Part shown: in pieces, positions 1,558-18,007 of the stretch
Layout: each line of letters begins with the position of its first letter
Numbering within the stretch: the stretch's first letter is position 1
IMG/VR virus record: IMGVR_UViG_3300044731_000955
Span: 1 to 61,473 of that record
Reading direction: 5' to 3' (one strand)
Source of the DNA: a virus
DNA length: 61,473 nt
The notes under the pieces: model-generated
What the model saw: only the letters and a program-made list of their open reading frames with translations
The model's database searches: none
Told to the model about the DNA's origin: nothing
Program-made: the position numbers and the translations under genes

Positions 1558-1560
1558 ATG

Positions 1561-2183: not shown

Positions 2184-2421
2184 TTAATTCTGTTTTTAAA
2201 TCTTTGTTTTCTTCTTTTAATGTTATTATCGTATTAACGGCTTCCGTTACTATTTGTGATTGTTTTTTACTAGCATCTTTTTGAACTTTAGCACTTGCTT
2301 GTGTGTTTTGCTCTACCTTTAAAAGTAGGTCTTGAAATTCCCTATCTTTTTTTGCAGTTTCACTTTCGTTCTGTGCAGTAGCTTGACATCCAAACAAAAA
2401 TATTAATAAAAAATATCTCAC
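2095..2421 (-). CDS. Lipoprotein-like coiled-coil protein, spanin-like candidate
   Basis: 108 aa, starting at a GTG (2419-2421) that overlaps the TGA of the preceding 39-aa gene. The N-terminus MRYFLLIFLFGCQ looks like a lipoprotein signal with lipobox LFGC, and the rest is a Lys/Glu/Gln-rich helix (residues 25-90). A short outer-membrane lipoprotein with a coiled coil, overlapping an exported coiled-coil gene, would fit an o-spanin. The lipobox is read by eye and the role is inferred. Confidence 0.45.
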   Translation of the reverse strand: MRYFLLIFLFGCQATAQNESETAKKDREFQDLLLKVEQNTQASAKVQKDASKKQSQIVTEAVNTIITLKEENKDLKTELNEVKVKLDSVNADTIIPFVLLPIPRKKVI

Positions 2422-2537
2422 TTTTTATTTTTTTTCTCTTTTATTATTTCATATACATAAACCGCCATAAAAGCCCAACACATCCCCACTAATAATAATT
2501 GAATATGAAACCCATAATCGTAAAGAAATTCTCTCAT
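2418..2537 (-). CDS. 39-aa single-span membrane protein
   Basis: A small ORF (MREFLYDYGFHIQLLLVGMC..., ending KEKKNKK) with one hydrophobic helix at about residues 12-32 and a Lys-rich tail. Its ATG overlaps the TAA of the upstream gene (TAATG) and its TGA overlaps the GTG of the next gene, so it fits the coupled operon exactly. The function is unknown; a holin or antiholin role in the lysis cassette is possible. Confidence 0.6.
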   Translation of the reverse strand: MREFLYDYGFHIQLLLVGMCWAFMAVYVYEIIKEKKNKK

Positions 2538-2839
2538 TATTTGATGGATTTAATTGCTCCTAATTCTTGCAATGTTCTTAATTGAGTAGTAGATACAGCT
2601 TTAGCCGAGTCGCTTCTTCTTAAAGCTTCTTGTACTAAATCTAGTCTATTTTCTACCTTTTCAATTCTAACATCTTGAGATTTAGCTTGTGATTGGAATG
2701 TGCTTCTTATATCTACATATAGATAACCTATCGCTATTAAGACAATAAACAAAGTTCCCACTACGGGATTTTTGGCAAAGTCTTTGAAACTTATTGGTAA
2801 TGGATTTGCTCCTATGTTTACTTTTTTACTTGTAGCCAT
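2537..2839 (-). CDS. Membrane-anchored coiled-coil protein
   Basis: 100 aa. A cytoplasmic N-terminus is followed by one transmembrane helix (GTLFIVLIAIGYLYV, about 28-42) and a long helical region (50-98) with heptad-like Val/Leu/Ile spacing. This is the topology of an i-spanin or a pinholin-like anchor. The family is not recognised. It overlaps both neighbours by one base. Confidence 0.5.
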   Translation of the reverse strand: MATSKKVNIGANPLPISFKDFAKNPVVGTLFIVLIAIGYLYVDIRSTFQSQAKSQDVRIEKVENRLDLVQEALRRSDSAKAVSTTQLRTLQELGAIKSIK

Positions 2840-3390
2840 TAGAATAATTTTTTATATAAGCCTAAGCTTATTTGATTGGTGGTAAAACTAAGCGTATAAG
2901 CCTCTTTTTGCTTCTTATAGTTCAATCCTACTCCTACTCCTATCTTATTATCAAAACGTCTAATATCGCCCAATAGACCTATATAAAGTTCATTCTTAGG
3001 CTTATGGTAGATATTATTGGTAACTACTATTGTCTTTTCAGTTAGATTAGCCTTATATGACCTTCCTATGATTCTATTTTGTGTAATAGTATCTTGAATA
3101 TATACGCTGTTATCCGCATTTATCTGTAAAGTATCCGAATAAGCCTTGATTTTATTGTAGTCATTGACGATATAAGTAGTATCATGTACTTCGTCAATTT
3201 GGTAGAGAGTATCTAAAACGACAAAAGGGATGTCATTCCCTTTCTTATATTTTTTTATTGTATCGTGCTTTATTATTGTGTCTATCTTGGTGATAACTTT
3301 GGTACCACCTCCTCCATTATTAGGGGCTAAAACAAAAAATAGCACCACAACTATAAGTGCTAAGATTAATATGTTTTTAACTATTGCCAC
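2839..3390 (-). CDS. Membrane-anchored periplasmic protein with C-terminal beta-rich domain
   Basis: 183 aa from a GTG start that overlaps the upstream gene by 14 bp. There is one N-terminal transmembrane helix (ILILALIVVVLFFVLA), a Gly4 hinge, then a long Asp/Thr/Ile-rich stretch (DTIIKHDTIKKY and similar). The last ~55 residues have alternating hydrophobic beta strands ending LGLYKKLF, like a pair of outer-membrane strands. The layout, inner-membrane anchor plus envelope-spanning region plus beta C-terminus, suggests a protein that bridges the two membranes during lysis. This is inference from composition; no family is assigned. Confidence 0.45.
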   Translation of the reverse strand: MAIVKNILILALIVVVLFFVLAPNNGGGGTKVITKIDTIIKHDTIKKYKKGNDIPFVVLDTLYQIDEVHDTTYIVNDYNKIKAYSDTLQINADNSVYIQDTITQNRIIGRSYKANLTEKTIVVTNNIYHKPKNELYIGLLGDIRRFDNKIGVGVGLNYKKQKEAYTLSFTTNQISLGLYKKLF

Positions 3391-3559
3391 GCTTTTTTTC
3401 CTTATGCTTAAAATAATAATACCTTAACGCTACCGAACCAGAACAAATACCAATTAAACTAGCAAGTAAGCTAACATATGGTTGAATTGCAGTTATAGAT
3501 ACAGCAGCACTTAATAAACTTACAGATGCAGATATGTCAGCTAATGTGTTATTTCCCAT
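3377..3559 (-). CDS. Small membrane protein, candidate holin/antiholin
   Basis: 60 aa. The hydrophobic core (residues 11-47) could form two short helices, and the C-terminus is very basic (YYYFKHKEKKRGNS). It is the first gene of the lysis operon, about 7 nt after the predicted transcription start of the promoter at 3573-3580. A holin role is possible. There is no recognised family. Confidence 0.5.
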   Translation of the reverse strand: MGNNTLADISASVSLLSAAVSITAIQPYVSLLASLIGICSGSVALRYYYFKHKEKKRGNS

Positions 3560-3572
3560 GTCAAATTTTTAC

Positions 3573-3580
3573 CAAATATA
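3573..3580 (-). promoter_or_regulatory. Bacteroidota-type -7 box (TATATTTG), lysis operon
   Basis: On the minus strand the sequence reads TATATTTG, an exact match to the TAnnTTTG -7 consensus. It lies 13 bp upstream of the ATG at 3559 and downstream of the end of the glycosyltransferase operon, so lysis genes can be transcribed separately. Confidence 0.6.
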
Positions 3581-3602
3581 GCCAATAATTAAATATATTT
3601 AC

Positions 3603-3827
3603 TTATATTGTCCACTTTTTTTCCGGACAAGCGTCTGCTCCCACAGGTGAGAACACTTTAGCACTCGTAGTACAGCCACATTTACCACAATAATCGCGTA
3701 TAGTAGATTGCACCCAAAACTCACAATTAGCACATATTTCAAGTCTTTTTTCAGCCACTTCTTTTTGCTCTTCTGTTGGGTTCATAGCAGTCATATAAGA
3801 CAGCAGGATTTCTTTTACTTTGTTCAT
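3603..3827 (-). CDS. Cys-rich mini-protein, probable zinc-binding
   Basis: 74 aa with an N-terminal helix and then a cysteine cluster: CANC (32-35), CGKCGC (about 48-53) and a last Cys near the C-terminus (ACPEKKW). The spacing suggests a small zinc ribbon. It is the last gene of the minus-strand glycosyltransferase operon and overlaps the preceding gene by 4 bp (ATGA). The function is unknown; small proteins of this type accompany phage glycosyltransferase genes. Confidence 0.6.
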   Translation of the reverse strand: MNKVKEILLSYMTAMNPTEEQKEVAEKRLEICANCEFWVQSTIRDYCGKCGCTTSAKVFSPVGADACPEKKWTI

Positions 3828-4471
3828 AAATTTAGATATGTTTTGTAAGATGATGAAGTATTTGCATTTTTTATGTAATATTTAAACTCTTCATTGTTTT
3901 CATAAGTTTCTTGGTTAAATTCCCAAGGATAATGTCTAGCTACATATGGGTAGGTAGTGCTTGCTCCACCAACAAAATAAGGGGTTCCTTTTTTATACAA
4001 AGCAAAGGTAGTATCTATTGCTATATCTGTGTAGATATTGTTTGTATGAGCAGAATTCCATCTATTTTTTTCGTATGATTGTAGATGGTTATAATATAAT
4101 GAATCTTCTTTTACTATTCCCCAATTCAATCCTAATCCTATCTTATCTAATCCTAATGAGTCCATATTATCTTTTAAATACAAAAGAGTATCTGAAGGTG
4201 TATCTAGTAAACCCACATCTGCGTCCGTTATAACATAATCATAATTTGTTATAACATCACCTAGTATTTGCCAAGGAGCTGTATGCCCTATGTTTTCTGT
4301 TCTGTGTATTGTGCATGGGCTTGTATCATACCATTCTAGAAGTGGTGGATAGTCTGAGCCATTATCTATAATAATAATTTCACCCACTCCTTCGTAAGTT
4401 TTAATCTTATTTACCATTTCTACCACCCAAGTAAATAGATTTCTATTATTTATAATTACAGGTATATTCAT
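3824..4471 (-). CDS. GT-A fold glycosyltransferase (GT2-like)
   Basis: 215 aa. The N-terminus has the nucleotide-binding Rossmann-like pattern of GT2 enzymes: a beta strand (VIINNR), then IIIIDNGSDYPP (residues ~33-44), then YDYVITDADVG with the metal-binding DAD (DxD) motif. The C-terminal half (YFVGGASTTYPYVARHYPW) would shape the acceptor site. It is short for GT2 and has no membrane helix, so a soluble transferase is expected. It is coupled to its neighbours by one- and four-base overlaps. The sugar donor and acceptor are unknown. Confidence 0.75.
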   Translation of the reverse strand: MNIPVIINNRNLFTWVVEMVNKIKTYEGVGEIIIIDNGSDYPPLLEWYDTSPCTIHRTENIGHTAPWQILGDVITNYDYVITDADVGLLDTPSDTLLYLKDNMDSLGLDKIGLGLNWGIVKEDSLYYNHLQSYEKNRWNSAHTNNIYTDIAIDTTFALYKKGTPYFVGGASTTYPYVARHYPWEFNQETYENNEEFKYYIKNANTSSSYKTYLNL

Positions 4472-5025
4472 TAATTATGTACATATAAAACTTTATCAAT
4501 CTTCACATAGTCTTGATATGCTTGCATTACCTTCTCTACAAAGTACCCATCAGCAGCATATTCTTTGCCTAATATTATATTTTTCCCTACATCGTTTCTT
4601 ACTGCAAATGCTCCAATATCTATTTGATTAAACACTAGTGAGCATTCAAAAAAATGGTATTCGTAATGAGAATGCACCATGTCCCAATATATTATTGCTG
4701 GATTAAATTCAGATGCTTTAGATAACTCCTCAACAAAATTTGGGGTGTAATAATTATCATCACCACTCATTACAATATATTTAGCTACACTATTTTGTTT
4801 GCCTAATTCTCTAGGCGTATGTCCCCAATCATTATATGTTTTATCTAATAGTGTATATTTTATTCTGTCATCTTTTACAATGTCAATTTGGTTAAATTCA
4901 TCTACGCTATTATCTATAATTACATTAGCTACCCAATCTGTATTTGTCTGAGCTAATAATGAATAGAGCATACTCTTTAGTTCATTAATTCTATTGTAGG
5001 TTGGTATAATAAAATCTACTATCAT
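4471..5025 (-). CDS. GT2 family glycosyltransferase, short
   Basis: 184 aa beginning MIVDFIIPTYNRINEL, the classic GT2 first strand. It continues with VIIDNSVDEF and YIVMSGDDNYYTPNF, where DD (in SGDD) is the probable metal-binding motif. No acceptor-recognition domain or membrane segment follows. The start overlaps the next upstream gene by 4 bp, so these genes are translated as a coupled set. Substrate unknown. Confidence 0.8.
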   Translation of the reverse strand: MIVDFIIPTYNRINELKSMLYSLLAQTNTDWVANVIIDNSVDEFNQIDIVKDDRIKYTLLDKTYNDWGHTPRELGKQNSVAKYIVMSGDDNYYTPNFVEELSKASEFNPAIIYWDMVHSHYEYHFFECSLVFNQIDIGAFAVRNDVGKNIILGKEYAADGYFVEKVMQAYQDYVKIDKVLYVHN

Positions 5026-5762
5026 TTATTTAAGAAGTCTTTTAGTAATTGGCTGTAATCATATTTCCAATTTGGATTTAGATACACATCACCCGTTGGT
5101 ATTTTACCTTGCATTCTTAACGATTCTATATGTTCAAAATGCCTTACAATTACGCTTGGCTTAGAATCATCATTATCGCTACCCATTCCGGACATATGGT
5201 AACCCCTTCCACCCCATACATAGAACCAACTAACTTCATCATCCGGTGGTGATGCTAGAACTACTTTTTCGGGGAAGTTCTCCTTAATGCTAATAACAAA
5301 TGTCATGTCATAGCCAGCATTTTCTAATGGATGTTTACCCACTCCTTCCCATGCTTCTCTGCTATATACTATACCACTATTACCAAGTGATGTAATGGCT
5401 TGTATATCAGGTACATTAAAAAATATTCCTTTTTGCCAATGCATCAATGCCGTTCCTTCTACAAAATATTTATCTATATTTTTTAGGTGATTTGGTAAGG
5501 CTAAGTCATCGTCATCCCAAACTATAATTGTATCTCCTTTACATTGTGATACTGCAAAGTTTTCTTTATCTCCAATAGTGGGAAATGTATAATCTAAATT
5601 AATTATTCTTACATCTGGATGGTCAAATATTAATTTTTGTTCTGGATAATCATTTACGATTACTAATTCTTTTTCTCCGTCATAATCTTGATTTAAAAAA
5701 GATTGTAAAGACTCTTCTAAATATTCCACTCTTCCGTATGTAATCATCTTGCAAGAAAGCAT
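5022..5762 (-). CDS. GT2 family glycosyltransferase
   Basis: 246 aa. N-terminal SCKMITYGRVEYLEESLQSF and ELVIVNDYP are GT2-type, and GDTIIVWDDDDLALPNHL holds the acidic DxD metal site. ASPPDDEVSWFYVWGGRGYH later could contribute the catalytic base region. It is the second gene of the leftward operon. The function is transfer of a sugar to an unknown acceptor; no transmembrane segment is visible. Confidence 0.82.
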   Translation of the reverse strand: MLSCKMITYGRVEYLEESLQSFLNQDYDGEKELVIVNDYPEQKLIFDHPDVRIINLDYTFPTIGDKENFAVSQCKGDTIIVWDDDDLALPNHLKNIDKYFVEGTALMHWQKGIFFNVPDIQAITSLGNSGIVYSREAWEGVGKHPLENAGYDMTFVISIKENFPEKVVLASPPDDEVSWFYVWGGRGYHMSGMGSDNDDSKPSVIVRHFEHIESLRMQGKIPTGDVYLNPNWKYDYSQLLKDFLNK

Positions 5763-5768
5763 AATTTA

Positions 5769-6698
5769 TTATTTTAAAACTGTTTTTAAAGCTGTTTCGC
5801 ATATCTCATTCCAATAATAAGAAGATGCTCTATCGGGGCTGATTTGAAGGTCGGCGCCATAGGGCAATTTATTTATGTATTCACCCTTAAAGAATAATCC
5901 ACTAATAGAATCTGTAACGCCTGCGTTATGCAGTATAGTATATGTTTCTACATCTGAGTAATTGTTAGTAACCCACCCAAAATCCATTCTTTTATCTACT
6001 CTTGTTTCATGCCCAAAGTACCATGCGTTCCAAAGAAAAGACCACATTCCTGCTGTCCACTTTTGAATAGGATAATCTCCGTCATGCTTCATTTTATAAT
6101 TTGGTTCTTCGTCACAGAAATATTTATATAAAATAATAGAGTCTAGTTCAACCTTTTCCCAAAATTCAAAGGTGGTATTTTTAACTATGTATTGCGCTCC
6201 CCCAGAATTATTATTCAAAAGCTTTGGTATTAATTTGTCAATGCCAATTATCTCACACATCTTTTCATACACATGATTGCCCTTCTGTTGAATATAATCG
6301 TAATTTATGTAGCTGTTTGTATCACTTAAAAACCATGAATTGCCCGCTATCATTGAATTAAACTCCGGTTTCTTTGTGAAAACAATATCCGAATCATGTA
6401 AAAATAAAACCTCATTCTGCAACTCCGGATGAGCTAGTAAATGTTGTTTCATTAGATTAAAGTAAACGGATGGGATATAAAATTTATCTACCCTATTATC
6501 ATTATAAAAAAAGAAATTAACCGGATATGTCTCTTTTAATTTTTGCCAATCATCGGGTATAATATCATTATCAATGGAACATACTATGTTAATACAATCT
6601 GTATCAACGCCCATTTTTATAAAATTATTAATTAGAACCTCGCACTGCCAAGTGTAGTATGGTATAGCGGGTTGGCAACAGACGTATCTTAACTTCAT
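5769..6698 (-). CDS. GT-A glycosyltransferase resembling plant-type peptidyl Ser/Hyp O-glycosyltransferases
   Basis: 309 aa. The start, YVCCQPAIPYYTWQCEVLIN, then a small strand ending INIVCSIDND, resembles by eye the opening of hydroxyproline O-arabinosyltransferases and peptidyl-serine galactosyltransferases (an aromatic-WQ motif followed by a TRLLSC-like strand). The metal site is FLHDSDIVF (DSD), and NNNSGGAQYIVKN and FGHETRVD follow. If the resemblance is real, the acceptor would be protein Ser or hydroxy-residues. It is the first gene of the leftward operon, directly after the -7 box at 6710-6717. The GT-A call is solid; the subfamily is tentative. Confidence 0.65.
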   Translation of the reverse strand: MKLRYVCCQPAIPYYTWQCEVLINNFIKMGVDTDCINIVCSIDNDIIPDDWQKLKETYPVNFFFYNDNRVDKFYIPSVYFNLMKQHLLAHPELQNEVLFLHDSDIVFTKKPEFNSMIAGNSWFLSDTNSYINYDYIQQKGNHVYEKMCEIIGIDKLIPKLLNNNSGGAQYIVKNTTFEFWEKVELDSIILYKYFCDEEPNYKMKHDGDYPIQKWTAGMWSFLWNAWYFGHETRVDKRMDFGWVTNNYSDVETYTILHNAGVTDSISGLFFKGEYINKLPYGADLQISPDRASSYYWNEICETALKTVLK

Positions 6699-6709
6699 AC
6701 TTTTTTTAG

Positions 6710-6717
6710 CAAAGTTA
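6710..6717 (-). promoter_or_regulatory. -7 box (TAACTTTG) of the minus-arm glycosyltransferase operon
   Basis: The minus strand reads TAACTTTG, matching TAnnTTTG, 11 bp before the ATG at 6698. The AT-palindrome-like element TTAATTTAATTAAA abuts it upstream (to ~6732), the same arrangement as at several other operons here. Confidence 0.55.
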
Positions 6718-6736
6718 TTTAATTAAATTAATAAAC

Positions 6737-7114
6737 CTAATATTCTTTGTAAGATTTTTCTTCGGTTAGTTCTGAGCCGTATTTTGTATTGATTTGTTTT
6801 TTGATGATGGCTCTGACATCGTTTAATTGGTAAACCTCCCGAGCTAGTTCTACGAACTTATCTCCAAAGTCTTTTTTGTGTTCATAGTCCCTTAAACTAT
6901 CTTCTACTGCCCATAGTTTTTTGTTTATGGAGTATAGCTCTTGTACTAATGGGTCTATTAAAATGACTGAGTGCTTTTTATTTAGGGCGTTTTTTACCAT
7001 TTTCCACTCTTTGTCTATGTTTATAAGCTTTTCTGTATCGTGTATTAAAAGCTTTTTTATGGTTAGGATGGTATATTTGTCCACCACTTCACCGATGCTG
7101 ACTTCTATTTTCAT
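6737..7114 (-). CDS. DUF6165-like protein
   Basis: 125 aa starting MKIEVSIGEVVDKYTILTIK, the conserved opening of a small helical family (DUF6165, by recall) found beside glycosyltransferase genes in bacteria and phages. The rest is Lys/Glu/Leu-rich helix with no catalytic motif. It is the promoter-proximal gene on the left side of the divergent region centred on the palindrome at 7145-7164. The biochemical role is unknown; association with sugar transfer is by neighbourhood. Confidence 0.6.
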   Translation of the reverse strand: MKIEVSIGEVVDKYTILTIKKLLIHDTEKLINIDKEWKMVKNALNKKHSVILIDPLVQELYSINKKLWAVEDSLRDYEHKKDFGDKFVELAREVYQLNDVRAIIKKQINTKYGSELTEEKSYKEY

Positions 7115-7144
7115 GGGCTAAAGATAAGATTTTTACCATTAATC

Positions 7145-7164
7145 ATTAATTTAATTAAATTAAT
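7145..7164. promoter_or_regulatory. Perfect 20-bp palindrome between divergent operons (operator candidate)
   Basis: ATTAATTTAATTAAATTAAT is its own reverse complement. It lies between the divergently transcribed 6737-7114 gene and the rightward operon, 4 bp before a + strand -7 box. Related sequences occur near other promoters in the window, so a DNA-binding regulator or a shared promoter element is likely. Confidence 0.55.
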
Positions 7165-7168
7165 TCCA

Positions 7169-7176
7169 TAGCTTTG
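7169..7176 (+). promoter_or_regulatory. -7 box (TAGCTTTG) of the rightward glycosylation operon
   Basis: TAGCTTTG matches TAnnTTTG and lies 44 bp upstream of the 35-aa gene at 7221. It is the only clear + strand promoter before 7387 and would drive 7221-10799. Confidence 0.55.
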
Positions 7177-7220
7177 TGGTAACTAAAACAAATAACGAAT
7201 AAACCTAAAAAATACAAAAA

Positions 7221-7328
7221 ATGAAAGAAACACTATTGATAGTATTATTAATTGTAATTATTATTTTTATTATCTCATATTATTGTGCTAAATGGCACAC
7301 TAAAACTTATGATGACCCATTTCTATAA
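7221..7328 (+). CDS. 35-aa single-span membrane peptide
   Basis: ATG preceded by an A-rich stretch (AATACAAAAA), encoding MKETLLIVLLIVIIIFIISY then a short polar tail ending DDPFL. It has one strong transmembrane helix. It is the first ORF after the promoter at 7169 and could tether the glycosylation enzymes to the membrane, but that is a guess; it may also be a decoy ORF. Confidence 0.5.
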   Translation: MKETLLIVLLIVIIIFIISYYCAKWHTKTYDDPFL

Positions 7329-7386
7329 CCAAAACAATATAAAAGAGCATTACCCAAGTGATGAAAATACACTAAATAAATAACAT

Positions 7387-8751
7387 ATGCCTACAAGCTA
7401 CCCGCTCTACAAAGATTCTGTCCGAAATTGGTTTCTGCAAAATGTCCCTTTAGATACTACTATATTAGATATTGGAGCAGGATGTGGTACTTATAGTGAT
7501 TTGATTCGTGGTTATGGTTATAAAATGGATGCGGTAGAAATATGGGAGCCATACATAAACCAATATGGGTTAAAGAATAAGTATGGGTGGGTGTATGAAG
7601 AGAATGTCCTTAAAATGCCCCTTGATGTACTTGGAGCCTATGACTTTTATATATTGGGTGATATTTTGGAACATTTGTCTGTGGAAGATGCCCAATGGCT
7701 CATGAATTTTTTAAAGATAAAAGGTAAACAATATCTTATAGCTGTGCCTTATGTTATGGAGCAAGGTGAGTATGAAGGCAATGTCCATGAAACCCACTTA
7801 CAGCCTGACCTTACGCCAGAAATAATGCTAGAAAGATACCATGATTTAGAACTGCTTTATGGCAATAATTTCTATGGTTATTACACAAATAAAAAACAAA
7901 AACATGAGAAAGCTTACGTCCTTTATGCTGATGATTCCTATTATGACCTTGTGGATGCTTGTTGTCGTTCCATTAGAAATTTTAGTGATTACCCTATATA
8001 TGTTTATATGCTTAATTCTTCTCAAAAGGTGAATGTGGTAAATACCATTACTAAAAGATGGGATTGTGATGTAATACATTTAAAGAAGCGTAATGATTAT
8101 ATAGTTAGAGAAGATAAGCAGATATATAAGCTACTGATTGAAAGACCTAAGATAGTAAGAGATGCTTTGAAATATGCTGAAACCGTTGCCTATATTGACA
8201 CAGATAGCATAGCAAACTGGAACGTAGATTCTATTTTTGATTATTATGATGTAGAATCAGACTACCCATATTTTACAAAGGGAATATATGATTTCTTAAT
8301 AATTAATGGTAAAGGTGGTGCGAGTAGTTATGATGACTTGAGTGATACATTGGAAGCGCCATTGTGTGAATTGTTTAAATCAGACCAATCAATAAGAAAA
8401 TTTACTGGCTATAGGCAAACTGGTTACTTTGTTGCCGGTCAAAAATCTATTGATTTCTTAGATATTTGGGCGCATAGATGTCAACACCCAATGATATTAA
8501 AAGACAATGCAAGATATGCTCCATACAATGAAGAAAGCGTTCTGCAAACGTTATTATATGATTTTAATGCACACAAAGGATTACCATTAATTTATGTCAA
8601 TGGATTACGCAAGGGGCTTGAGTTTAAAGGATATGAATACTTTATGGGTGAATGGTTTAAAGTACCTGCACAAAAAGATGATTTACTTTTTTACCATGGA
8701 GAAAAAGATATAAATAAGATTAATGAATTTATAGAATATTTAAAGTTATGA
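7387..8751 (+). CDS. SAM-dependent methyltransferase fused to a GT-A glycosyltransferase
   Basis: 454 aa, two domains. Residues ~1-150 are a class I SAM methyltransferase: ILDIGAGCGTYSDL (motif I), AVEIWEPY (acidic end of strand 2), FYILGDILEHLS (motif IV region). Residues ~175-454 read as a GT-A transferase: YVLYADDSYYDLVDACCRSI, then VAYIDTDSIANW with the DTD metal motif, then FLIINGKGGASSYDD and FTGYRQTGYFVAGQ. The fusion suggests that one polypeptide adds and methylates a sugar, or caps a glycan. Its stop overlaps the next start by 4 bp. Substrates are unknown. Confidence 0.8.
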   Translation: MPTSYPLYKDSVRNWFLQNVPLDTTILDIGAGCGTYSDLIRGYGYKMDAVEIWEPYINQYGLKNKYGWVYEENVLKMPLDVLGAYDFYILGDILEHLSVEDAQWLMNFLKIKGKQYLIAVPYVMEQGEYEGNVHETHLQPDLTPEIMLERYHDLELLYGNNFYGYYTNKKQKHEKAYVLYADDSYYDLVDACCRSIRNFSDYPIYVYMLNSSQKVNVVNTITKRWDCDVIHLKKRNDYIVREDKQIYKLLIERPKIVRDALKYAETVAYIDTDSIANWNVDSIFDYYDVESDYPYFTKGIYDFLIINGKGGASSYDDLSDTLEAPLCELFKSDQSIRKFTGYRQTGYFVAGQKSIDFLDIWAHRCQHPMILKDNARYAPYNEESVLQTLLYDFNAHKGLPLIYVNGLRKGLEFKGYEYFMGEWFKVPAQKDDLLFYHGEKDINKINEFIEYLKL

Positions 8752-10799
8752 AGATAGTATTACTTTGCCCTTCGTTAAGTACGGGTGGTATGCCCCAATT
8801 TGCATTAAAAAGAATTCAAGAAATATTAAAGCATACTGAAAATGTAGAGATGTATTGTATTGAGCTTAATTTTCATGGGGCTGATTTTGTGGTTCAAAGG
8901 AATCAAGTAATTAAAATACTTGGAGATAGATTTTATGAGGCTGGTTTGAACAAAATGCGAGTAATAGATATTATCAATGAGATTAAGCCTGATGTGGTTC
9001 ATATTGAAGATGTGGCAGAGAGATTACCAAAGGAGCTTGCAACTGCCTTATATAGAAATGATAGACAATTCTATATCGTTGAAACGCCTCATGATAATAT
9101 ATTTAACCCTGACGCAGAAAAAATTTTCCACCCAGACCTTTATGCTTTTTGCACTCCTTTTCATGAGGACGTTTACCAAAATATGGAGTCTTTATACTTT
9201 ACAATTCAATATCCAATAGAAGAAAAAAAAGTAACTAAGGATATGAGGATTAAAGCTAAGAAAGAAGTAGGGTTTGCCTTGGATAGAAAGACGGTGTTGC
9301 AAGTGGGATTATGGACTCCACAAAAAAACCAAAAAGAAACTATTGCTATTGCTCGTAAATATCCTAATATAGATTTTGTGGTAGCTGGTAATTTGGCTGG
9401 TAATTTTCAATTTTATTGGGAAGAATTAATAAAGGATTTACCATCTAATTTTAAAGCTCTTGGTGAGAGAAGTGATATAGATACTTTGTTGCAAGCTGCT
9501 GATATATTTATTTTCCCATCTACCAATGAATGTTCTCCTTTGTCTTTGCGTCATGCTATTGAAGTTGGTTTGCCTATTGTAGCCAATAACTTACCCGCTT
9601 ATGCAGGAACCTTAGATAAGTATTTAAAACCCTTAGATTCCAATTTAAATACCATTACCAGAGATTATAAAATACCAAATAGTAACAATTCAAGAAACTT
9701 TGCACTAGAGCATAAAAAAATGTATGAGGTTCTTATGAAAATACCAATCAAAAAGCAAGCTGTTTCCATCACGCAACACTTTGTCAATCAGCCATTCTTA
9801 GAGATTAAAGGTAATAGTGAGAGTGATTTTTTAGTTCAATTTTTAGACGAAAAAGGTAGTATATATTACCAAAATACGATAAAAGCAAACCATTGGGTAC
9901 GATTAAATAGGCAGTGGTACACAAAATGGAGGACAAAAGTTTTTGAGGGCAAAGACTTGATTTACAATAGCACCTTGGACCTAGAAGGTAAAAAAGTTTT
10001 TATAGCTATTGATAGTAAATCACTTGGAGATTCGCTTGCTTGGATGCCCTATGTGGAAGAGTTTAGAAACAAGCATAATTGTACGGTGGTTTGCAGTACA
10101 TTTTGGAATAAGATATTGGACTATCCAGAGATTGAATTTGTGGAGCCGGGGACGATGATAGGATGTTATGCCATGTACACTTTGGGGTGGCATTGGAACG
10201 AAGATAAAGAACCAACCCTTTGCAATACCATTCCTTTGCAACAATCAGCTAGTAATATCCTTGGATTGGATTATGTGGAGCTAAAACCACGCTTAAAGTA
10301 TGATATTGGAGAAAATAAGTATGGCAAGTATGTCACAATCGCCACAAACAGCACTGCGGGGCTTAAATTTTGGCTTAAACCATCTTGGCAACAAGTTATC
10401 AACCACCTACACGAAAAGGGCTACAAGGTCATAAATACGTCCAAAGAACGCAATCCATTTGAAAACTGCTACCAATTAGAAGATACAAGCATAGAAAATA
10501 CCATGTCTGTTATCCATCATAGTGATTTTTTTGTAGGGCTTAGCAGTGGAATTTCATGGCTTTCCTTTGGGCTTGGCAAGAAGGTGGTAATGATTTCAGC
10601 CTTTACAGAAGCTGACCACGAGTTTGACTGCATCAGACCCCGCAATAACAATGTATGTACAAATTGTTGGAATGACCCTAAGATTAAATTCGATGCGGGA
10701 GATTTCAATTTCTGCCCGCATCATAAGGGTACTGAGAGAATGTTTGAGTGCCAAACGAGTATCACACCCGAAATGGTTATTCAGCAATTGCCTCTGTAA
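8748..10799 (+). CDS. GT4 glycosyltransferase fused to a TibC/Aah-type protein O-heptosyltransferase domain
   Basis: 683 aa. Residues ~1-330 form a GT-B (GT4-like) enzyme: CPSLSTGGMPQFALKRI, VLQVGLWTPQKNQKE, and the donor-site stretch AADIFIFPSTNECSPLSL. After ~345 the sequence matches, by recall, the autotransporter-strand O-heptosyltransferase family: FIAIDSKSLGDSLAWMPYVE, a GT9-like core (FFVGLSSGISWLSF), and a C-terminal four-cysteine finger C637-x2-C640, C656, C668 followed by TSITPEMV. In TibC this finger binds iron and the enzyme adds heptose to protein serines. The stop overlaps by 23 bp the end of the convergent gene at 10777. The domain call is strong; the sugar and target are inferred. 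Confidence 0.85.
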   Translation: MKIVLLCPSLSTGGMPQFALKRIQEILKHTENVEMYCIELNFHGADFVVQRNQVIKILGDRFYEAGLNKMRVIDIINEIKPDVVHIEDVAERLPKELATALYRNDRQFYIVETPHDNIFNPDAEKIFHPDLYAFCTPFHEDVYQNMESLYFTIQYPIEEKKVTKDMRIKAKKEVGFALDRKTVLQVGLWTPQKNQKETIAIARKYPNIDFVVAGNLAGNFQFYWEELIKDLPSNFKALGERSDIDTLLQAADIFIFPSTNECSPLSLRHAIEVGLPIVANNLPAYAGTLDKYLKPLDSNLNTITRDYKIPNSNNSRNFALEHKKMYEVLMKIPIKKQAVSITQHFVNQPFLEIKGNSESDFLVQFLDEKGSIYYQNTIKANHWVRLNRQWYTKWRTKVFEGKDLIYNSTLDLEGKKVFIAIDSKSLGDSLAWMPYVEEFRNKHNCTVVCSTFWNKILDYPEIEFVEPGTMIGCYAMYTLGWHWNEDKEPTLCNTIPLQQSASNILGLDYVELKPRLKYDIGENKYGKYVTIATNSTAGLKFWLKPSWQQVINHLHEKGYKVINTSKERNPFENCYQLEDTSIENTMSVIHHSDFFVGLSSGISWLSFGLGKKVVMISAFTEADHEFDCIRPRNNNVCTNCWNDPKIKFDAGDFNFCPHHKGTERMFECQTSITPEMVIQQLPL

Positions 10800-11018: not shown

Positions 11019-12389
11019 CTACAACCCTGCTTTGTTTAATCTTTCATTTAATTCTTCTATTTGTTTTTTTAATTCTAATATTTCAGCGTCTTTTTCTATT
11101 TTTAATTCTTGTACTGCTTTTATAGTTATATATGGCAATACTGAATTTTTTATGCTTTTATAATCGCCTTCTTCATATTCTTCTTCTATAATAGTTCCGT
11201 CTTCTTGCTCAATTTCGCGTTTCTTTTTAATTGGTTCTGTTATTACAAGATTTGGGAATACTTCTTCAACTTCTTGCGCAATTAAACCAAGTTCTTTTCC
11301 GCCTTCTATGCTTTCTTTCCATTCATAGTTTACAATTCTTAGCTTCATTAAATTATCAAGCTTTGGCGTAGCGTTAGCAATATTCTTTTTTAATCTAATA
11401 TCCGAACGACCTGAAGTTGTACCATTTGACCATATTGTAAAACAAACAACACTTGAATCAACACATTGTAAAAAATAATTAGTTGTATTATTTGGTGCAG
11501 CATTTGAAAAATATAAAAATGGCCCATATGGACTTGCCGCAACATTTGTTATATATACAACATTTTCATTATTCCTATTTGTATATATTTCGTGATAGTT
11601 ACCACTTGAATTAACATAACTGCCATTATTAGTTATTTTTGTATAACCACCACTTGCAATTTGAGTAATACGCATTCTTTCTGTAAGTGCAGTATTAAAT
11701 GTTAAAGTACCACTATTGTAAACATCTGTTTTACCACTTCCAGCTAAATCAATAGCAAAATCAGTAGAACCATTACCCATTTGTAATTCATTACCTGCAT
11801 AACCACTTGTCCCAATCGTTATACTTGTAGAGAATGTAGCTGCTCCTGTGGATGAAAAATACAATCTATTAGTTCCTGCACTTATAGGGTCTCCACCTGT
11901 TGAATTAGATTGTCTAATTGCTAAATCTCCAACTGCATCGTGTCCTGCTCTTATTGCCCAATTCTTTGAACTTGCTTGAGTATCGTAAATACTTAAATAA
12001 GCACCGCTTCCTGTTACTTTTATTTGGTCACCTGCCGTTACACTACTTGAGAATGTAGCTGCACCTGCATTAGTAATAGATAATAATCCAATAGTATTTG
12101 CAGCATTTAAAACCCTAAAACCATTTGTTACATTAGCTGAAAAATAAGCTGAAGTTCCTAAATCTTGTGATGAATTTTGTTGTATGGTTCCATTAGCTGT
12201 AAGAGTACCACTAAACGTAGCAGCAGCTCCTGTCAATGCACCACCCAATAATAATGTACTACTAACCTTAGCTGTACCAGTTACTTCTAATTTATAACTA
12301 CCACTAGGTGCTGCTCCTATTCCTACGTTGTTAGATGCGTCAGTTAGTATTGCTAAAGGAATAGTACCCAATTTCTGTGTCAGTCCCAT
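11019..12389 (-). CDS. Tail fibre/spike protein with C-terminal S74 intramolecular chaperone
   Basis: 456 aa. The first ~330 residues are Gly/Ser/Thr/Ala-rich beta-structured repeats (GAATFSSSVTAGD-type phrases). The C-terminus carries the S74 chaperone domain: GRSDIRLKKNI (self-cleavage Ser just before the Asp), YEWKESIEGGKELGLIAQEV, then a coiled coil (VQELKIEKDAEILELKKQ). These domains trimerise the fibre and are then cut off. Its start lies 1 bp after the stop of the next fibre gene upstream. It probably contributes to receptor binding; its S74 end differs from those of the two neighbouring fibres. Confidence 0.85.
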   Translation of the reverse strand: MGLTQKLGTIPLAILTDASNNVGIGAAPSGSYKLEVTGTAKVSSTLLLGGALTGAAATFSGTLTANGTIQQNSSQDLGTSAYFSANVTNGFRVLNAANTIGLLSITNAGAATFSSSVTAGDQIKVTGSGAYLSIYDTQASSKNWAIRAGHDAVGDLAIRQSNSTGGDPISAGTNRLYFSSTGAATFSTSITIGTSGYAGNELQMGNGSTDFAIDLAGSGKTDVYNSGTLTFNTALTERMRITQIASGGYTKITNNGSYVNSSGNYHEIYTNRNNENVVYITNVAASPYGPFLYFSNAAPNNTTNYFLQCVDSSVVCFTIWSNGTTSGRSDIRLKKNIANATPKLDNLMKLRIVNYEWKESIEGGKELGLIAQEVEEVFPNLVITEPIKKKREIEQEDGTIIEEEYEEGDYKSIKNSVLPYITIKAVQELKIEKDAEILELKKQIEELNERLNKAGL

Positions 12390-12390
12390 A

Positions 12391-13695
12391 TTATTTGTTT
12401 TTTAACTCGTTTAGTTCTAATCTTAATTCTTGTACTGCCTTTGTTAATATAGCTATGATACTATTGTATTCCACACCTGCTAATGAACCATCTTCATTAT
12501 AAAATACTAATTCTTTATTTACTTTTTCTACTTCATCAGCTATAAAACCATAAGTTACATTATCATATAATTCATCAGTATATTCATTAGTAAAATCATT
12601 TTTTTTACGATAATTAAATTGAACTGGATTAAGTTGGCTAATAAAATCAACATTAGTTATAGATTTTATATTTGATTTAGATTCTCTAGTTGATACTAAA
12701 TATCCTAAACCTCCACCACTTTCAACAATCATTGTTCTTCCTGAAACGGCATTATTATAAGTAAATGTTCCAGCATTAATAAAACCATCTGCTCTAACAG
12801 TAAATATATCAGTACCTGTAGAAGTTGCAGCATTTGAACCATTTCTAACTTTAAAAGCATAATAACTTGAAGAAGTTGCATTAACTGCGACTATACCACC
12901 ATAATATTGAGAATAAAGAACATAAGCTGCAGAGCCTGTATTCCCATCATTAACAAATTGTAATTTATATCCATTATCAGTAGTAGTTCCTATTAATACA
13001 TTACCCCCATTTGTAATTGCCATTCTTGGTGTAAAAGTTACTGCTGTATTTATAGTTCCTGAAGGTGCAGTGTACCAAGTATGACCACCAGCATATTGTT
13101 CATAATCACTTGCTTGTGCAGTACTTGCATATAATCTTGAATTTGAAGAAGCAGAAAAATAATAATTATTAGTAAGATGAAACTCATTAACATATCTACC
13201 CCAAACAGCACTACCTACAAAACCTACCTCTAATGCTTTACCATTTACCCAACCATTACTCGGTGTAACTCCTAATCCTAAATTGCCATTTGTATCAATA
13301 GTTAATCTTGTTGCAGATGCAGTATTATCTTCTAAAGTAAGGCTTCCAGTTGAACCAAGGTCAAAAGAATAATTTCTATTGGTTTTTGTAGTTCCAGCAG
13401 TTCTAATAAGTTTTAAACGAGGGAAAAAGTCACCTGTTGCACTTGCAGCAATTTCTTGATTACTACCACCAACTGATGTAATACCACTACTAAACGTAGC
13501 ACTTGTACCACTTAATGCTCCTGTAAAATTACCTGTACCACTAACATCTAATTTATAAGTAGTATTAGTATTACCTATTCCAACATTAGTTCCATTATCA
13601 AATATTAAGCTATTGCCTATGGTTGTACCTGTGGCACGAAGTAAAAAATTTGTGGTTACGAGGGGTGCCGTAGCCAATATACTATTTGTACTCAT
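12391..13695 (-). CDS. Tail fibre protein with S74 chaperone domain
   Basis: 434 aa. It has a repetitive fibre body (LRATGTTIGNSLIFDNGTNV, GIGNTNTTYKLDV) and a C-terminal S74 domain from about residue 330: LVSTRESKSNIKSI, LNPVQFNYRKK, YGFIADEVEKVN, ending in a Leu/Glu coiled coil. The last ~105 residues are close to those of the 1215-aa fibre upstream, so one arose from the other by duplication. Its ATG overlaps the TGA of the GIY-YIG gene. It likely forms trimeric fibres or replaces the tip of another fibre. Confidence 0.85.
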   Translation of the reverse strand: MSTNSILATAPLVTTNFLLRATGTTIGNSLIFDNGTNVGIGNTNTTYKLDVSGTGNFTGALSGTSATFSSGITSVGGSNQEIAASATGDFFPRLKLIRTAGTTKTNRNYSFDLGSTGSLTLEDNTASATRLTIDTNGNLGLGVTPSNGWVNGKALEVGFVGSAVWGRYVNEFHLTNNYYFSASSNSRLYASTAQASDYEQYAGGHTWYTAPSGTINTAVTFTPRMAITNGGNVLIGTTTDNGYKLQFVNDGNTGSAAYVLYSQYYGGIVAVNATSSSYYAFKVRNGSNAATSTGTDIFTVRADGFINAGTFTYNNAVSGRTMIVESGGGLGYLVSTRESKSNIKSITNVDFISQLNPVQFNYRKKNDFTNEYTDELYDNVTYGFIADEVEKVNKELVFYNEDGSLAGVEYNSIIAILTKAVQELRLELNELKNK

Positions 13696-14360
13696 ATTAA
13701 ATCTTTTTTATATTTCCATTTAAAACCTCTATGGTAGTGGCTTAAACCTCTGCAAACCTTTGATATTGAAGCTGAGCTATATCCTATTTTAGATGCTGCA
13801 TTTACACTTTTATATGTAGCTACAAGTTCTCCATCTAAACTAAATTGATGTACTTCCATTGCTGGTCTATAACAAGTACAATTTCTTTTTTTATGAATTA
13901 AATTCTTCTTGGATTCTCTTATCTTATCTTTTGTTTCTTGAGATAATCTAGTAAAAGTTCTTGTTAAAGCAAATTTTTCTCTTTGCCCTTCCCTTTGGTA
14001 AACTTTTTTAACCGCTTCTCCTGTTTTCTTTCTATGCTCGTCACTATAAATATATTTTCTACCAAGCGTTCCTTCATCACCTCCATCAGTATAATTACAT
14101 AAAGTACCTGTACCCAAGTCTTTTCTACCATATAACTTGATAAATTCCTTTTCTTTTTCACAAGATTCCTCGTGAGTCAAATTATCAAGTAATATTTCTA
14201 CCTCAAAATCTGTTTTATTTGTAATATTTTGCCATAATTTATTTCTTCTATGTTTATGACTTTTGTCATAGGCTCTAGCATAATTGTCATCAGTTGCTGA
14301 AATGCCAATATAGAATGGTTCATTATTGTCTAATCTGATATGTCTGTAAACGTATGCCAT
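13692..14360 (-). CDS. GIY-YIG homing endonuclease with NUMOD3/NUMOD1 modules
   Basis: 222 aa. The N-terminal YVYRHIR...PFYIGIS matches the GIY-YIG core, followed by a helical region with ARAYDKSHKHRRN and a Glu (EKEFIKLYGR). Residues ~110-140 (GRKYIYSDEHRKKTGEAVKK) look like NUMOD3, and the C-terminus (HQFSLDGELVATYKSVNAAS ... GFKWKYKK) like NUMOD1 DNA-binding modules. It sits between two paralogous fibre genes with ATGA and TAATG overlaps on both sides, so it is a free-standing intergenic homing endonuclease. It would cut alleles lacking it and drive spread of the linked fibre region. Confidence 0.88.
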   Translation of the reverse strand: MAYVYRHIRLDNNEPFYIGISATDDNYARAYDKSHKHRRNKLWQNITNKTDFEVEILLDNLTHEESCEKEKEFIKLYGRKDLGTGTLCNYTDGGDEGTLGRKYIYSDEHRKKTGEAVKKVYQREGQREKFALTRTFTRLSQETKDKIRESKKNLIHKKRNCTCYRPAMEVHQFSLDGELVATYKSVNAASKIGYSSASISKVCRGLSHYHRGFKWKYKKDLI

Positions 14361-17300
14361 TATTTTGTAGCTACAATTTTTTTAAGTTCTTCAATTTGTG
14401 CTTGTTGTTCTTGAATAGCTTTTGTTAATATTGCTATCATATTGTTATACTCAACACCAGCCAAAGTAACACCATCTTCTTGATAAAATACTAAGTCTTT
14501 ATTAACCTTTTCCACCTCATCAGCTATAAAACCATAAGTTATATTATCATATAATTCATCAGTAAATTCATTTGTTATATTATCTTTTTTACGATAATTA
14601 AATTGTACTGGATTAAGTTGATTAATAAAATCAACATTACTTATAGATTCTATATTTGCCTTTGATTCTCTTGTGGATACTAAATATCCTAATACTCCAG
14701 ATGAACTTAATATAGCAGTTCTACCAGTTGCTGAAATATTATAAGGTGAATTAGTTTGTGTACCAGTTTCTATTAATCCATCATTTCTAACTTGAAACAA
14801 AGCATTTGCGGCACTACTTTCAACTCTGAAACCAAATGTAGCACTTGTCGCACCAGCTCCTCTAACAGCTAATCTCATGTCTGAATATCCAGTCATTCCG
14901 ATTCCAACATTCCCCCCACTTGTAAGAGTAAATGGTTGATTACCTGCGGTTTCATTATATATAAACAATGAAGTAGTTCCTAAACCAAATTTATATTTTT
15001 GAGCAGTTCCACTTGTTTTTTCAAATGTTATTGTACCACCTTCTGTACCACTACTTGTTATATGTAGCTGTCCTACTGAGCCACCATTATAAGCAGTAGA
15101 TAAAGTTCCTGTTGTTGCCGTTACACTACTTGAGAATGTAGCTGCACCTGTTGAGGCTATGGTAAGTAATGTAGTAGCTCCTACCCCACTAAACAATCTT
15201 AAATTAGTTGAATCAACAAGCAAAGAATAAGTTAAAGGTGTACCACCGCCTGTCATTACAAAATAAGTATCCCCAGTACTAGACAAATGCAGTTTACCAC
15301 TTGGACTACTTGTTCCAATACCAAGATTACCTGAAGCGTCAAGATTCATTCTTTGTACCCAAGTAAGTGCATTGTCAGCAGTTCCGCTTGCAGCAGTGTA
15401 CCAACGATGGTCAGAGCCGTCAATAAGATATTGACCTGCTACGTCTGTAAATTTATATTTCCAACCTGTATCAAAATAACTATTTGTTGTTAAGTATAAT
15501 ACATTAGCACTATTTTGGAAAGCAATAGCAGATTGATTATTTGTATCTCCACCTTCTAAAACTCTAAAAATACTTCCCCACGCACTTATTGTTGTAACTC
15601 CTACTCCTATATTACCACTAAACGTAGCACTTGTACCACTTAAAGCTCTTGACACTAAGGTAACAGTAGTACCATTATCTGTGATTGCACTATCTCCTAT
15701 TGTACTTGATGCTGTGAACTTTGGTATTGTATTAATTGTACCAGAACCAGCTATTCCACTATAAGCTCCTACTGAATAAGAGTAAGCATAAACTACTACT
15801 ATATCATTTAATTGACAAGCTGTTGCTAATATTATACTTGTACCATTGGTTGCAGTATATTCTGATTGAGCAAGATTAGAACCATTATAAAAAACATCTA
15901 TTAAGCCTTGAGTATAACTTACTGAAAAAGTAGTTTGCGCAGCTGTCGCAGTAAAAGTAGTTATAGTTCTTAATGCATTTGTTGGTAAATATGCCGTCAA
16001 TAAATTATCAATCTCAACAATGTTACCAGCCGCTAAAGCCGCCGCCATAACCACTGTTGTACCATTAGTCGCAGTAAAATCAGTACCATTTACAAACTTA
16101 ACTCCATTCACAAACACATCTACCATTCCAAGATTGTAACCATTGGTAACAGTAAAAGTTGTCTGTCCTGATGTCGATGTAAAAGTCTGAACCGCTCTCG
16201 CTGATGTTGTTGCGTTACCGCTTGTCCCAGACGACCCACTAGTCCCTGTGGAGCCACTTGTCGCAGATGTCCCAGACGTCCCAGTCGTCCCCGATGAGCC
16301 ACTTGAGCCAGCCGAACCTGACGTCCCAGACGTTCCACTAGTCGCAGACGACCCAGATGTCCCAGTGGTCCCACTTGAGCCAGATGACCCACTTGAACCA
16401 GCCGAACCTGATGACCCTGTTGAACCATCAACACCACTAGTTCCAGAAGACCCACTTGACCCTGCCGAACCGCTTGAACCTGTATTTCCACTTGACCCAT
16501 TTATACCACTTGACCCACTTGACCCTGACGAGCCACTAGTTCCTGAAGTTGTACCTACAGCTACACCAATTTGTTTTATGTTGGTAATTATTGAAGGAGC
16601 TGCTGGTATTGTTCCTGTTGCAGCTACTGCTGTTACTTGTACATCAGATGCATTTGCTTGAAAATAAACTTCATAATAATCATTAGCATTTGCACTATCA
16701 ATAATAGAAACGAATGGTAACTGCTTTGCACTTTGGCTTCTTAAACCTAAGATAGAATCAGTTCTAATAATATTAGCTCCATTTTTCTTTAGCCAAATAT
16801 TAACATCTGCACCTCCACCACCTGTATGTTCAATTTGTAATGAATATGCTATTTCATAGATACCAGTATGTTGAACTGTAAGTTGTGAACCAGAATATAC
16901 TATACCATTACTTAATTCATCATTTGTGTATGTAATTGCTGTTGGTGTATTTGCCGCTGTAACCACTTGAGTAGATGTACTTGTAAACGCACCATACCAG
17001 TTAGCTATTGAAGCTCCTGAAGAACCATCAATACCATTACGACCAGTAGTCCCAGATGTCCCAGCTGACCCACTGCTGCCAGATGTCCCAGAAGAACCAC
17101 TGCTGCCAGACGACCCACTTGTCCCAGTTGACCCACTGGTCCCCGCTGTCGCAGATGTCCCAGAAGTACCACTAGACCCATCTCCTCCACTCGCACCATC
17201 TAAGTTAACAGACCAAGCAGAATAAGTTCCGCTACCTACTGTTCTAGTTGGAGCTGCGAATGATAAAGAACCTGTTGCTGGATTATAAGCTGTAACCTCA

Positions 17301-18007
17301 CACTCTTGGAAGTTATTAGCGTCATAAACCACAATTATAGATTGAGCTACCGTATATGCTAATTGAGTACCTACAGTTAAAGTTCCTGCATTACCCAATG
17401 TAAATGTTGTCGATGAAGTTGTGGCATATCTGTCACCTTGTAAACCACTTGTACCAGAAGTCCCAGATGTTGCACTACTGCCAGAAGTTCCAGCCGTACC
17501 ACTTGTCGCAGACGAACCACTTGTCCCACTTGTCGCAGACGTTCCAGATGACCCACTTGAACCTCCCGTTCCGTCTGTGGCAGATGTTCCAGAAGACCCA
17601 CTCGACCCACTTGTTGCAGATGTCCCAGAGGAGCCACTAGTCGCAGATGAGCCAGATGTCCCACTTGTTCCCCCCGTTCCGTCTGTCGCAGATGTTCCAG
17701 AAGTCCCAGATGTCGCAGACGACCCACTTGTCCCCGCGGTAGCAGATGTCCCAGATGACCCACTTGTCGCAGATGAGCCACTAGTCCCTGCGGAGCCAGA
17801 TGACCCAGAAGTCCCAGACGAGCCAGATGTCGCACTTGTACCTGCAGTCCCTGATGTCGCACTTGTTCCAGATGACCCAGACGAGCCAGAAGTCCCAGAA
17901 GAACCAGAAGAGAAGCTCGTAGCGGTCACAATTCCGTCCGTTGCTACAAGAACTCCGTTAAGACCTCTTACCTTTAAATCGCCTGAAATTAATCCTTGTA
18001 TTGCCAT
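14360..18007 (-). CDS. Long tail fibre with Gly-X-X triplet repeats and S74 chaperone
   Basis: 1215 aa. After ~35 residues (GLISGDLKVRGLNG) come long stretches of collagen-like triplets built only from Gly, Ser, Thr and Ala (GTSGSSGTSATSGSSG type). They occur in three blocks, about 36-185, 275-325 and 485-595, separated by globular beta domains. The distal part has beta-repeat modules (GAATFSSSVTATTG) and a C-terminal S74 domain (LVSTRESKANIESI, LNPVQFNYRKK, YGFIADEVEKVN). The triplets lack proline, unusual for a collagen-like shaft. The blocks offer hundreds of Ser/Thr sites and might be glycosylated by the enzymes encoded at 3.8-10.8 kb. Confidence 0.88.
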   Translation of the reverse strand: MAIQGLISGDLKVRGLNGVLVATDGIVTATSFSSGSSGTSGSSGSSGTSATSGTAGTSATSGSSGTSGSSGSAGTSGSSATSGSSGTSATAGTSGSSATSGTSGTSATDGTGGTSGTSGSSATSGSSGTSATSGSSGSSGTSATDGTGGSSGSSGTSATSGTSGSSATSGTAGTSGSSATSGTSGTSGLQGDRYATTSSTTFTLGNAGTLTVGTQLAYTVAQSIIVVYDANNFQECEVTAYNPATGSLSFAAPTRTVGSGTYSAWSVNLDGASGGDGSSGTSGTSATAGTSGSTGTSGSSGSSGSSGTSGSSGSAGTSGTTGRNGIDGSSGASIANWYGAFTSTSTQVVTAANTPTAITYTNDELSNGIVYSGSQLTVQHTGIYEIAYSLQIEHTGGGGADVNIWLKKNGANIIRTDSILGLRSQSAKQLPFVSIIDSANANDYYEVYFQANASDVQVTAVAATGTIPAAPSIITNIKQIGVAVGTTSGTSGSSGSSGSSGINGSSGNTGSSGSAGSSGSSGTSGVDGSTGSSGSAGSSGSSGSSGTTGTSGSSATSGTSGTSGSAGSSGSSGTTGTSGTSATSGSTGTSGSSGTSGNATTSARAVQTFTSTSGQTTFTVTNGYNLGMVDVFVNGVKFVNGTDFTATNGTTVVMAAALAAGNIVEIDNLLTAYLPTNALRTITTFTATAAQTTFSVSYTQGLIDVFYNGSNLAQSEYTATNGTSIILATACQLNDIVVVYAYSYSVGAYSGIAGSGTINTIPKFTASSTIGDSAITDNGTTVTLVSRALSGTSATFSGNIGVGVTTISAWGSIFRVLEGGDTNNQSAIAFQNSANVLYLTTNSYFDTGWKYKFTDVAGQYLIDGSDHRWYTAASGTADNALTWVQRMNLDASGNLGIGTSSPSGKLHLSSTGDTYFVMTGGGTPLTYSLLVDSTNLRLFSGVGATTLLTIASTGAATFSSSVTATTGTLSTAYNGGSVGQLHITSSGTEGGTITFEKTSGTAQKYKFGLGTTSLFIYNETAGNQPFTLTSGGNVGIGMTGYSDMRLAVRGAGATSATFGFRVESSAANALFQVRNDGLIETGTQTNSPYNISATGRTAILSSSGVLGYLVSTRESKANIESISNVDFINQLNPVQFNYRKKDNITNEFTDELYDNITYGFIADEVEKVNKDLVFYQEDGVTLAGVEYNNMIAILTKAIQEQQAQIEELKKIVATK

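Follow-up and report, generated by a model that had tools for sequence, protein, structure and literature searches.

An open reading frame (ORF) on the plus strand of a viral DNA stretch encodes a GT4 glycosyltransferase fused to a TibC-type O-glycosyltransferase, and we propose, with a probability of roughly 0.6, that this enzyme O-glycosylates the phage's own serine/threonine (Ser/Thr) collagen-like tail fibre, its GT4 domain and a methyltransferase/GT-A protein encoded just upstream extending or capping the sugar. The stretch, hereafter the window, is the 61,473 nucleotides of IMG/VR record IMGVR_UViG_3300044731_000955 (G000), a viral record with terminase and portal matches. The ORF starts with ATG at 8748, ends at 10799 and specifies 683 residues. 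We infer the fibre as acceptor from its association with the enzyme across phage contigs, from the habits of the enzyme family, and from the enzyme's absence from phages with Gly-X-Gln collagen. This association and the overlapping upstream enzyme are additions to the preliminary description of this DNA, which had located the ORF and read it as a fusion of GT4 and TibC-type halves.

Profile, sequence and fold comparisons agree on that fusion. The N-terminal half matches PF00534 (GT4) at residues 169–287 (8.6e-15; 55.1 bits against a cut-off of 26.4). The C-terminal half matches the NCBIfam equivalog TIGR04414 (hepto_Aah_TibC) at residues 360–680 (5.7e-71; 239.4 bits against a cut-off of 200), with a weak GT9/heptosyltransferase match in Pfam at residues 527–646. 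The TibC structures 4rap and 4rb4 rank first among PDB sequences (phmmer, 2.6e-45). An AlphaFold model built with 15 sequences has a mean predicted local distance difference test score (pLDDT) of 83 and a predicted template modelling score (pTM) of 0.56; because of this pTM, the placement of the two halves relative to each other is not reliable. Residues 339–683 of the model superimpose on TibC (4rap_A) with Z 29.0 over 333 residues (root-mean-square deviation 3.2), and as modelled form a complete TibC-type O-glycosyltransferase, with an N-terminal beta-barrel and a GT-B catalytic fold. Residues 1–329 adopt the full GT-B fold of GT4 enzymes such as HepE (4xso, Z 25.6, the highest), BshA and PimB′, from which the window protein differs by its fusion to a protein O-glycosyltransferase and by a substitution in the GT4 motif described below.

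PMC4358343 describes an iron in TibC held by Cys339, Cys342, Cys358 and Cys370, a finger that assists substrate binding, and TibC relatives that modify protein serine. The window protein carries C637, C640, C656 and C668 with exactly the TibC spacing (3, 16, 12); these cysteines, TSITPEMV and DSKSLGDSLAWMP, all singled out in the preliminary description, are found in the translation. None of the four cysteines varies among 15 full-length relatives, the window protein included, and the finger region has a pLDDT of about 48–54. By phmmer alignment, Asp110, Thr226, Lys230 and Trp305 of TibC correspond to D428, T536, K540 and W604. Over 81 viral loci, a partly redundant set, Asp110 is kept in 81, Lys230 and Trp305 in 79 each, and each finger cysteine in 74 or 75; six of the 81 lack coverage of at least three finger positions, and one (L401) has none of the four cysteines.

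The donor site is less well conserved. In TibC, Arg286 touches the adenine of ADP-heptose and Pro300 sets the stereochemistry (PMC4358343). The window protein has T585 at the first position and Ser599 at the second, where AAH also has serine. Arg286 is arginine in only 11 of the 81 viral loci and Pro300 is proline in none, and the arginine is retained in all three bacterial members fetched for comparison. Judged from these alignments, the catalytic machine is that of TibC, with a donor recognition that probably differs. Because T585 replaces Arg286, and arginine is so rare there among the viral loci, we do not file the protein as a heptosyltransferase: the earlier assignment to the autotransporter O-heptosyltransferases stands as family membership, by TIGR04414 and fold, but not as to the donor. 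ADP-heptose is possible as donor but is not supported. The heptose nucleotidyltransferase profile TIGR02199 matches 6 of 50 enzyme-bearing records, only one over its cut-off, and a profile search of the window gave no match to it; we accordingly rejected ADP-heptose supply as general support for heptose. The 147-kb phage G452 (L402, L422) combines a TIGR02199 domain over cut-off with a stand-alone TibC-type enzyme in which Arg286 is retained; this enzyme is a candidate true phage heptosyltransferase.

In the GT4 half, the E-x7-E motif is incomplete: E261 is retained and the second glutamate is replaced by His269. This position is glutamate in 64 of 70 aligned copies and histidine in the window protein and three close relatives. 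Since the second glutamate is lost, GT4 activity appears uncertain in the window copy, and it is likely in the family. The preliminary description had gone further and suggested that the fused enzymes could make and transfer a disaccharide, which as an O-heptosyltransferase product would contain heptose. In favour of such a bifunctional enzyme, the model shows each GT-B domain entire, but Thr585 at the Arg286 position, the near absence of TIGR02199 from enzyme-bearing records and its lack of a match in the window, and the histidine in the GT4 motif make this version decidedly improbable.

The upstream ORF, at 7387–8751, overlaps the GT4/TibC ORF by the ATGA at 8748–8751. Its model (pLDDT 74) matches S-adenosylmethionine (SAM) methyltransferases over residues 1–170 (Z 14.4) and GT-A enzymes over residues 172–454 (BoGT6a, Z 15.8; LgtC, 14.6). 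All or most of this enzyme is fused in frame to GT4/TibC in relatives with ORFs of about 1000–1160 residues (L004, L007, L009, L010, L013), and L408 and L409 have the same fusion, judged by open frame. Because of these in-frame fusions, the two window genes very likely work as one unit. A homologue of the window ORF at 13692–14360, which lies among the fibre genes and is presumably GIY-YIG-like, is inserted between the two genes in L002 and L410.

About 3.6 kb from the enzyme gene, on the opposite strand, lies the collagen-like fibre gene that we propose as acceptor (Table 1), and a collagen-like gene with mostly Ser/Thr at X and Y adjoins the enzyme in many loci. Adjacency to a surface-protein gene is a habit of the family, since the gene next to the enzyme in two bacterial members encodes an autotransporter adhesin (L066) or a YadA-like protein (L067). 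No autotransporter passenger was found among 20 window proteins scanned with Pfam, a scan that covered part of the window ORFs.

We compared contigs for which a Gly-Thr-Ser DNA pattern was the sole criterion of selection with controls picked by the reversed pattern. From each scan 80 of 120 stretches were used, and both sets exclude repeated contigs and those shorter than 20 kb; the test set numbered 50 after L144 and L147 were left out of 52, and the controls were the first 50 eligible among those listed. The reversed pattern, planned as a random control, selected mostly glutamine-type collagen-like genes and so provides a closer control rather than a random sample. These controls are informative because Gly-X-Y proteins, for the most part of the Gly-X-Gln type, are encoded by 40 of the 50 stretches, and only two of them contain at least 40% Ser/Thr. 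TIGR04414 was matched in 23 of the 50 Gly-Thr-Ser contigs (22 over cut-off) and in none of the controls (Fisher P 8.7e-9), and clustering at 70% identity divides the TibC-type domains from 22 of these 23 positives into 21 clusters. In the reverse test, (G[ST][ST])4 occurred in 18 of 24 enzyme-bearing contigs of at least 40 kb versus 4 of 50 controls (P 8.7e-9); near relatives are counted among these 24 (clustering at 70%, possible for 23 of them, gives 15 clusters), and because its codons are degenerate the pattern also accepts a few other residues. The GT2 family PF00535 was present in 11 of the 50 test contigs and in 20 of the 50 controls, and therefore no general wealth of glycosyltransferases lies behind the association.

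The two genes are also closer within contigs than expected. In 13 of 22 positive contigs the scan pattern lay within about 9 kb of the enzyme, inside a stretch measuring at most about 19 kb, versus 6.0 expected (P 6e-4), and in contigs of at least 80 kb in 6 of 11 versus 1.5 expected (P 1.4e-3). This calculation left out G411, a close relative of the window, from the 23 positives, and it assumes one repeat cluster per contig, which is a simplification. The window's own clade is uninformative: the enzyme is over cut-off in 17 of 27 terminase relatives of at least 40 kb and the repeat present in 25 of 27, and of the 16 relatives of at least 55 kb, 15 have both and one (G408) has neither, which leaves no useful variation. 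G408 itself carries two inverted terminase copies and is probably a misassembly.

Several results weigh against fibre glycosylation by this enzyme. TIGR04414 was not matched in 27 of the 50 Gly-Thr-Ser contigs, many of which are fragments; the repeat is absent from 6 of the 24 enzyme-bearing contigs; and 9 of the 22 contigs have no repeat pattern in the neighbourhood of the enzyme gene. The GT4 domain may be weak in the window copy, given H269. The beta-hairpin thumb joins the dodecameric ring of TibC, and in the window protein it is about 10 residues shorter by phmmer alignment, with no long hairpin among the predicted strands; because the thumb is needed for the ring, a TibC-like dodecamer appears doubtful here. 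Test and control hosts may also differ, and host clade could explain part of the association.

That last point can be taken further: the TibC-type domain might act on some other phage or host protein, its link to the fibre being a trait of the host clade shared by phages of Bacteroidota and cyanobacteria. Among the isolate terminase relatives of the window, 86 of 87 records are phages of Flavobacteriia (Flavobacterium, Cellulophaga, Tenacibaculum and Maribacter by name), as this explanation would have it. The excess proximity within contigs argues against it, as does the recurrence of the link in a Microcystis phage, and we regard it as unlikely. An alternative of a different kind is that the enzyme and its cluster alter a host surface glycan, lipopolysaccharide (LPS) or capsule, and so exclude other phages, adjacency to the fibre reflecting a shared host-recognition module. 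The cluster does contain two GT2 genes, and the authors of a pelagimyophage survey read fibre-region glycosyltransferases in this way (PMC7029224); against this, relatives of TibC modify serine in proteins (PMC4358343), and Ser/Thr fibres are enriched for the TibC-type domain and not for generic GT2. This, too, seems to us an unlikely account. Glycosylation of phage DNA bases, although a common role of phage glycosyltransferases (see PMC12619734), is hardly credible for a TibC-type domain with barrel and finger, and no base-glycosylating family appears among the Pfam, NCBIfam and PHROG matches.

The finger offers a further comparison. In three of the six repeat-less enzyme-bearing contigs (G551, G541, G542) the encoded protein is shorter and terminates ahead of the finger, which would fit a role of the finger in substrate binding, the number being small; L401, without the four cysteines, sits in a repeat-bearing contig and is a counter-example to a link between finger and fibre. 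A stand-alone viral subgroup (L039–L042) has proteins that stop before the iron finger, and the three of its contigs searched all lack the Gly-[Ser/Thr]-[Ser/Thr] pattern. Among the controls, the Gly-X-Gln collagen phages G515, G516, G507 and G482 encode GT2 domains in ORFs of at least 1000 residues, which may represent an analogous system built on a different enzyme.

If the fibre is the acceptor, the TibC-type domain would add the first sugar to its Ser/Thr residues before or during trimerisation, and the GT4, GT-A and methyltransferase activities would subsequently extend or cap it. The order of these steps is a guess, and activity of the GT4 domain is presumed.

Table 1. Positions of the fused enzyme, its domains and motifs, and neighbouring genes in the window.
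Feature	Position	Strand	Evidence
Fused GT4/TibC-type O-glycosyltransferase, 683 residues	8748..10799	+	Pfam, NCBIfam, phmmer, AlphaFold model, fold comparison
GT4-type GT-B domain (residues 1–330)	8748..9737	+	PF00534; fold Z 25.6 to 4xso over 1–329
GT4 E-x7-E motif, second Glu replaced (E261 ... H269)	9528..9554	+	Alignment of copies
TibC-like N-terminal beta-barrel (about residues 339–415)	9762..9992	+	Seven model strands between 340 and 410; aligns from TibC residue 22
TibC-type catalytic domain (residues 416–683)	9993..10796	+	TIGR04414; 4rap/4rb4
Putative catalytic base D428 (TibC Asp110)	10029..10031	+	phmmer alignment; D in 81/81 viral loci
T585 at the TibC Arg286 position (adenine contact)	10500..10502	+	Alignment to TibC
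Iron-finger motif C637, C640, C656, C668	10656..10751	+	Spacing as in TibC; 15/15 full-length relatives
SAM methyltransferase (1–170) and GT-A glycosyltransferase (172–454)	7387..8751	+	Fold Z 14.4 and 15.8
Collagen-like tail fibre, 83 Gly-[Ser/Thr]-[Ser/Thr] triplets; proposed acceptor	14360..18007	-	PHROG tail fibre/collagen-like; triplet count
Fibre protein ending in Peptidase_S74 intramolecular chaperone	11019..12389	-	PF13884
Further tail fibre protein	12391..13695	-	PHROG
GT2 glycosyltransferase, same cluster	5022..5762	-	PF00535
GT2 glycosyltransferase, same cluster	4471..5025	-	PF00535

An HNH endonuclease is also encoded among the fibre genes of the window, at 18009–18515.

Fusion is the usual state of phage TibC-type enzymes. 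Of 81 TibC-type ORFs, the window included, 67 have at least 250 residues before the domain and 14 stand alone. A first scan of viral contigs had returned 44 relatives, its fusion counts biased because the GT4 half had supplied some of the search patterns; where loci were selected by the repeat alone (L386–L407), 18 of 24 TibC-type ORFs have at least 250 residues in front. Clustering the TibC-type domains of 79 loci gives 60 groups at 90% identity and 45 groups at 70%. Architectures vary widely: a 2863-residue ORF (L027, 258–8846) combines GT4, DUF6625, three FkbM stretches, PIG-L, Methyltransf_24 and a TibC-type domain, L043 has a methyltransferase inserted within the TibC-type domain, and L025 has an FkbM domain at the end of the protein. 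In L033 (ORF 1175–5311; same record as L407) the GT4 region contains an intein with a LAGLIDADG endonuclease, and L389 and L403 each have two TibC-type ORFs within a stretch of about 15–20 kb. A further relative (L048), with a Gly-Thr-Ser ORF nearby, comes from a contig binned as the archaeal Candidatus Nitrosotalea that is probably a phage contig.

Simple acquisition from a typical host does not account for the presence of the gene in the phage. A bacterial host origin was rejected on the finding that only one of 395 Bacteroidota genomes exceeds the TIGR04414 cut-off, namely the anchor genome, itself picked for having a match, and that its contig (L046) is phage-like, with polymerase, helicase and nucleotidyltransferase genes of phage type. 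A scan of genome contigs with one narrow pattern gave four loci and is little informative on bacteria at large.

The window enzyme shares with TibC and AAH (BAHT) a profile score over cut-off, the beta-barrel and GT-B architecture, the residues equivalent to Asp110, Thr226, Lys230 and Trp305, the finger cysteine spacing, and a gene position near that of a repeat-rich surface protein. Unlike both, it is phage-encoded, has GT4 fused in front, threonine for Arg286 and a shorter thumb, and neighbours a collagen-like tail fibre instead of an autotransporter; serine at the residue 300 position sets it apart from TibC but not from AAH. Two deposited viral relatives in BFVD, known here by their database names only, are A0A7S9XE01 of Virus NIOZ-UU157, a full-length relative at 47% identity, and the phage protein A0A6J5SVC1, already named 'Glycosyltransferase Aah/TibC'. 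The closest parallel in an isolate is coding sequence (CDS) 4750–8430 of Microcystis phage Mel-JY01, annotated only as an FkbM methyltransferase, which has a GT4-type region at about 132–379 and TIGR04414 at 864–1224 (317 bits), near a Gly-Thr-Ser collagen-like ORF with which it forms the same pair; it differs from the window protein in its cyanophage origin, its 1226 residues and an extra middle part. The Mel-JY01 collagen-like gene (L426, 2–3052) is overlaid on the opposite strand by the annotated CDS 739–2298, probably a miscall. Mycobacteriophages provide a known case of virion glycosylation (Freeman 2023, cited by PMC12619734 and PMC12363180), in which phage glycosyltransferases put sugar on virion proteins, as we propose here; the acceptors there are capsid and tail-tube subunits, and the accessible passages mention no TibC-type enzyme or collagen-like fibre. 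Our literature search found no paper that connects collagen-like fibres of phages to a TibC-type enzyme, weak evidence of novelty with subscription literature mostly outside its scope.

Glycosyltransferases near the fibre genes of environmental phages are usually read as modifiers of host LPS or of phage DNA. We hold tentatively, at somewhat under even odds, a broader reading: that many phages of environmental bacteria carry an assembly-line enzyme, a TibC-type O-glycosyltransferase joined to additional glycosyl- and methyltransferase domains, by which a defined glycan is assembled on Ser/Thr in the collagen triple helix of their own tail fibre from a donor other than ADP-heptose. If true, this would amount to dedicated O-glycosylation of viral collagen, with enzyme and fibre sequence (Gly-Thr-Ser versus Gly-X-Gln) co-evolving. 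That the family is tied to one fibre type, in Bacteroidota phages and in an isolated cyanophage, raises the question of whether these fibres are glycoproteins. Should they be, O-glycosylation of phage collagen could protect the fibres or tune adhesion, and the fused enzymes would be a compact tool for adding glycans to collagen-like repeats.

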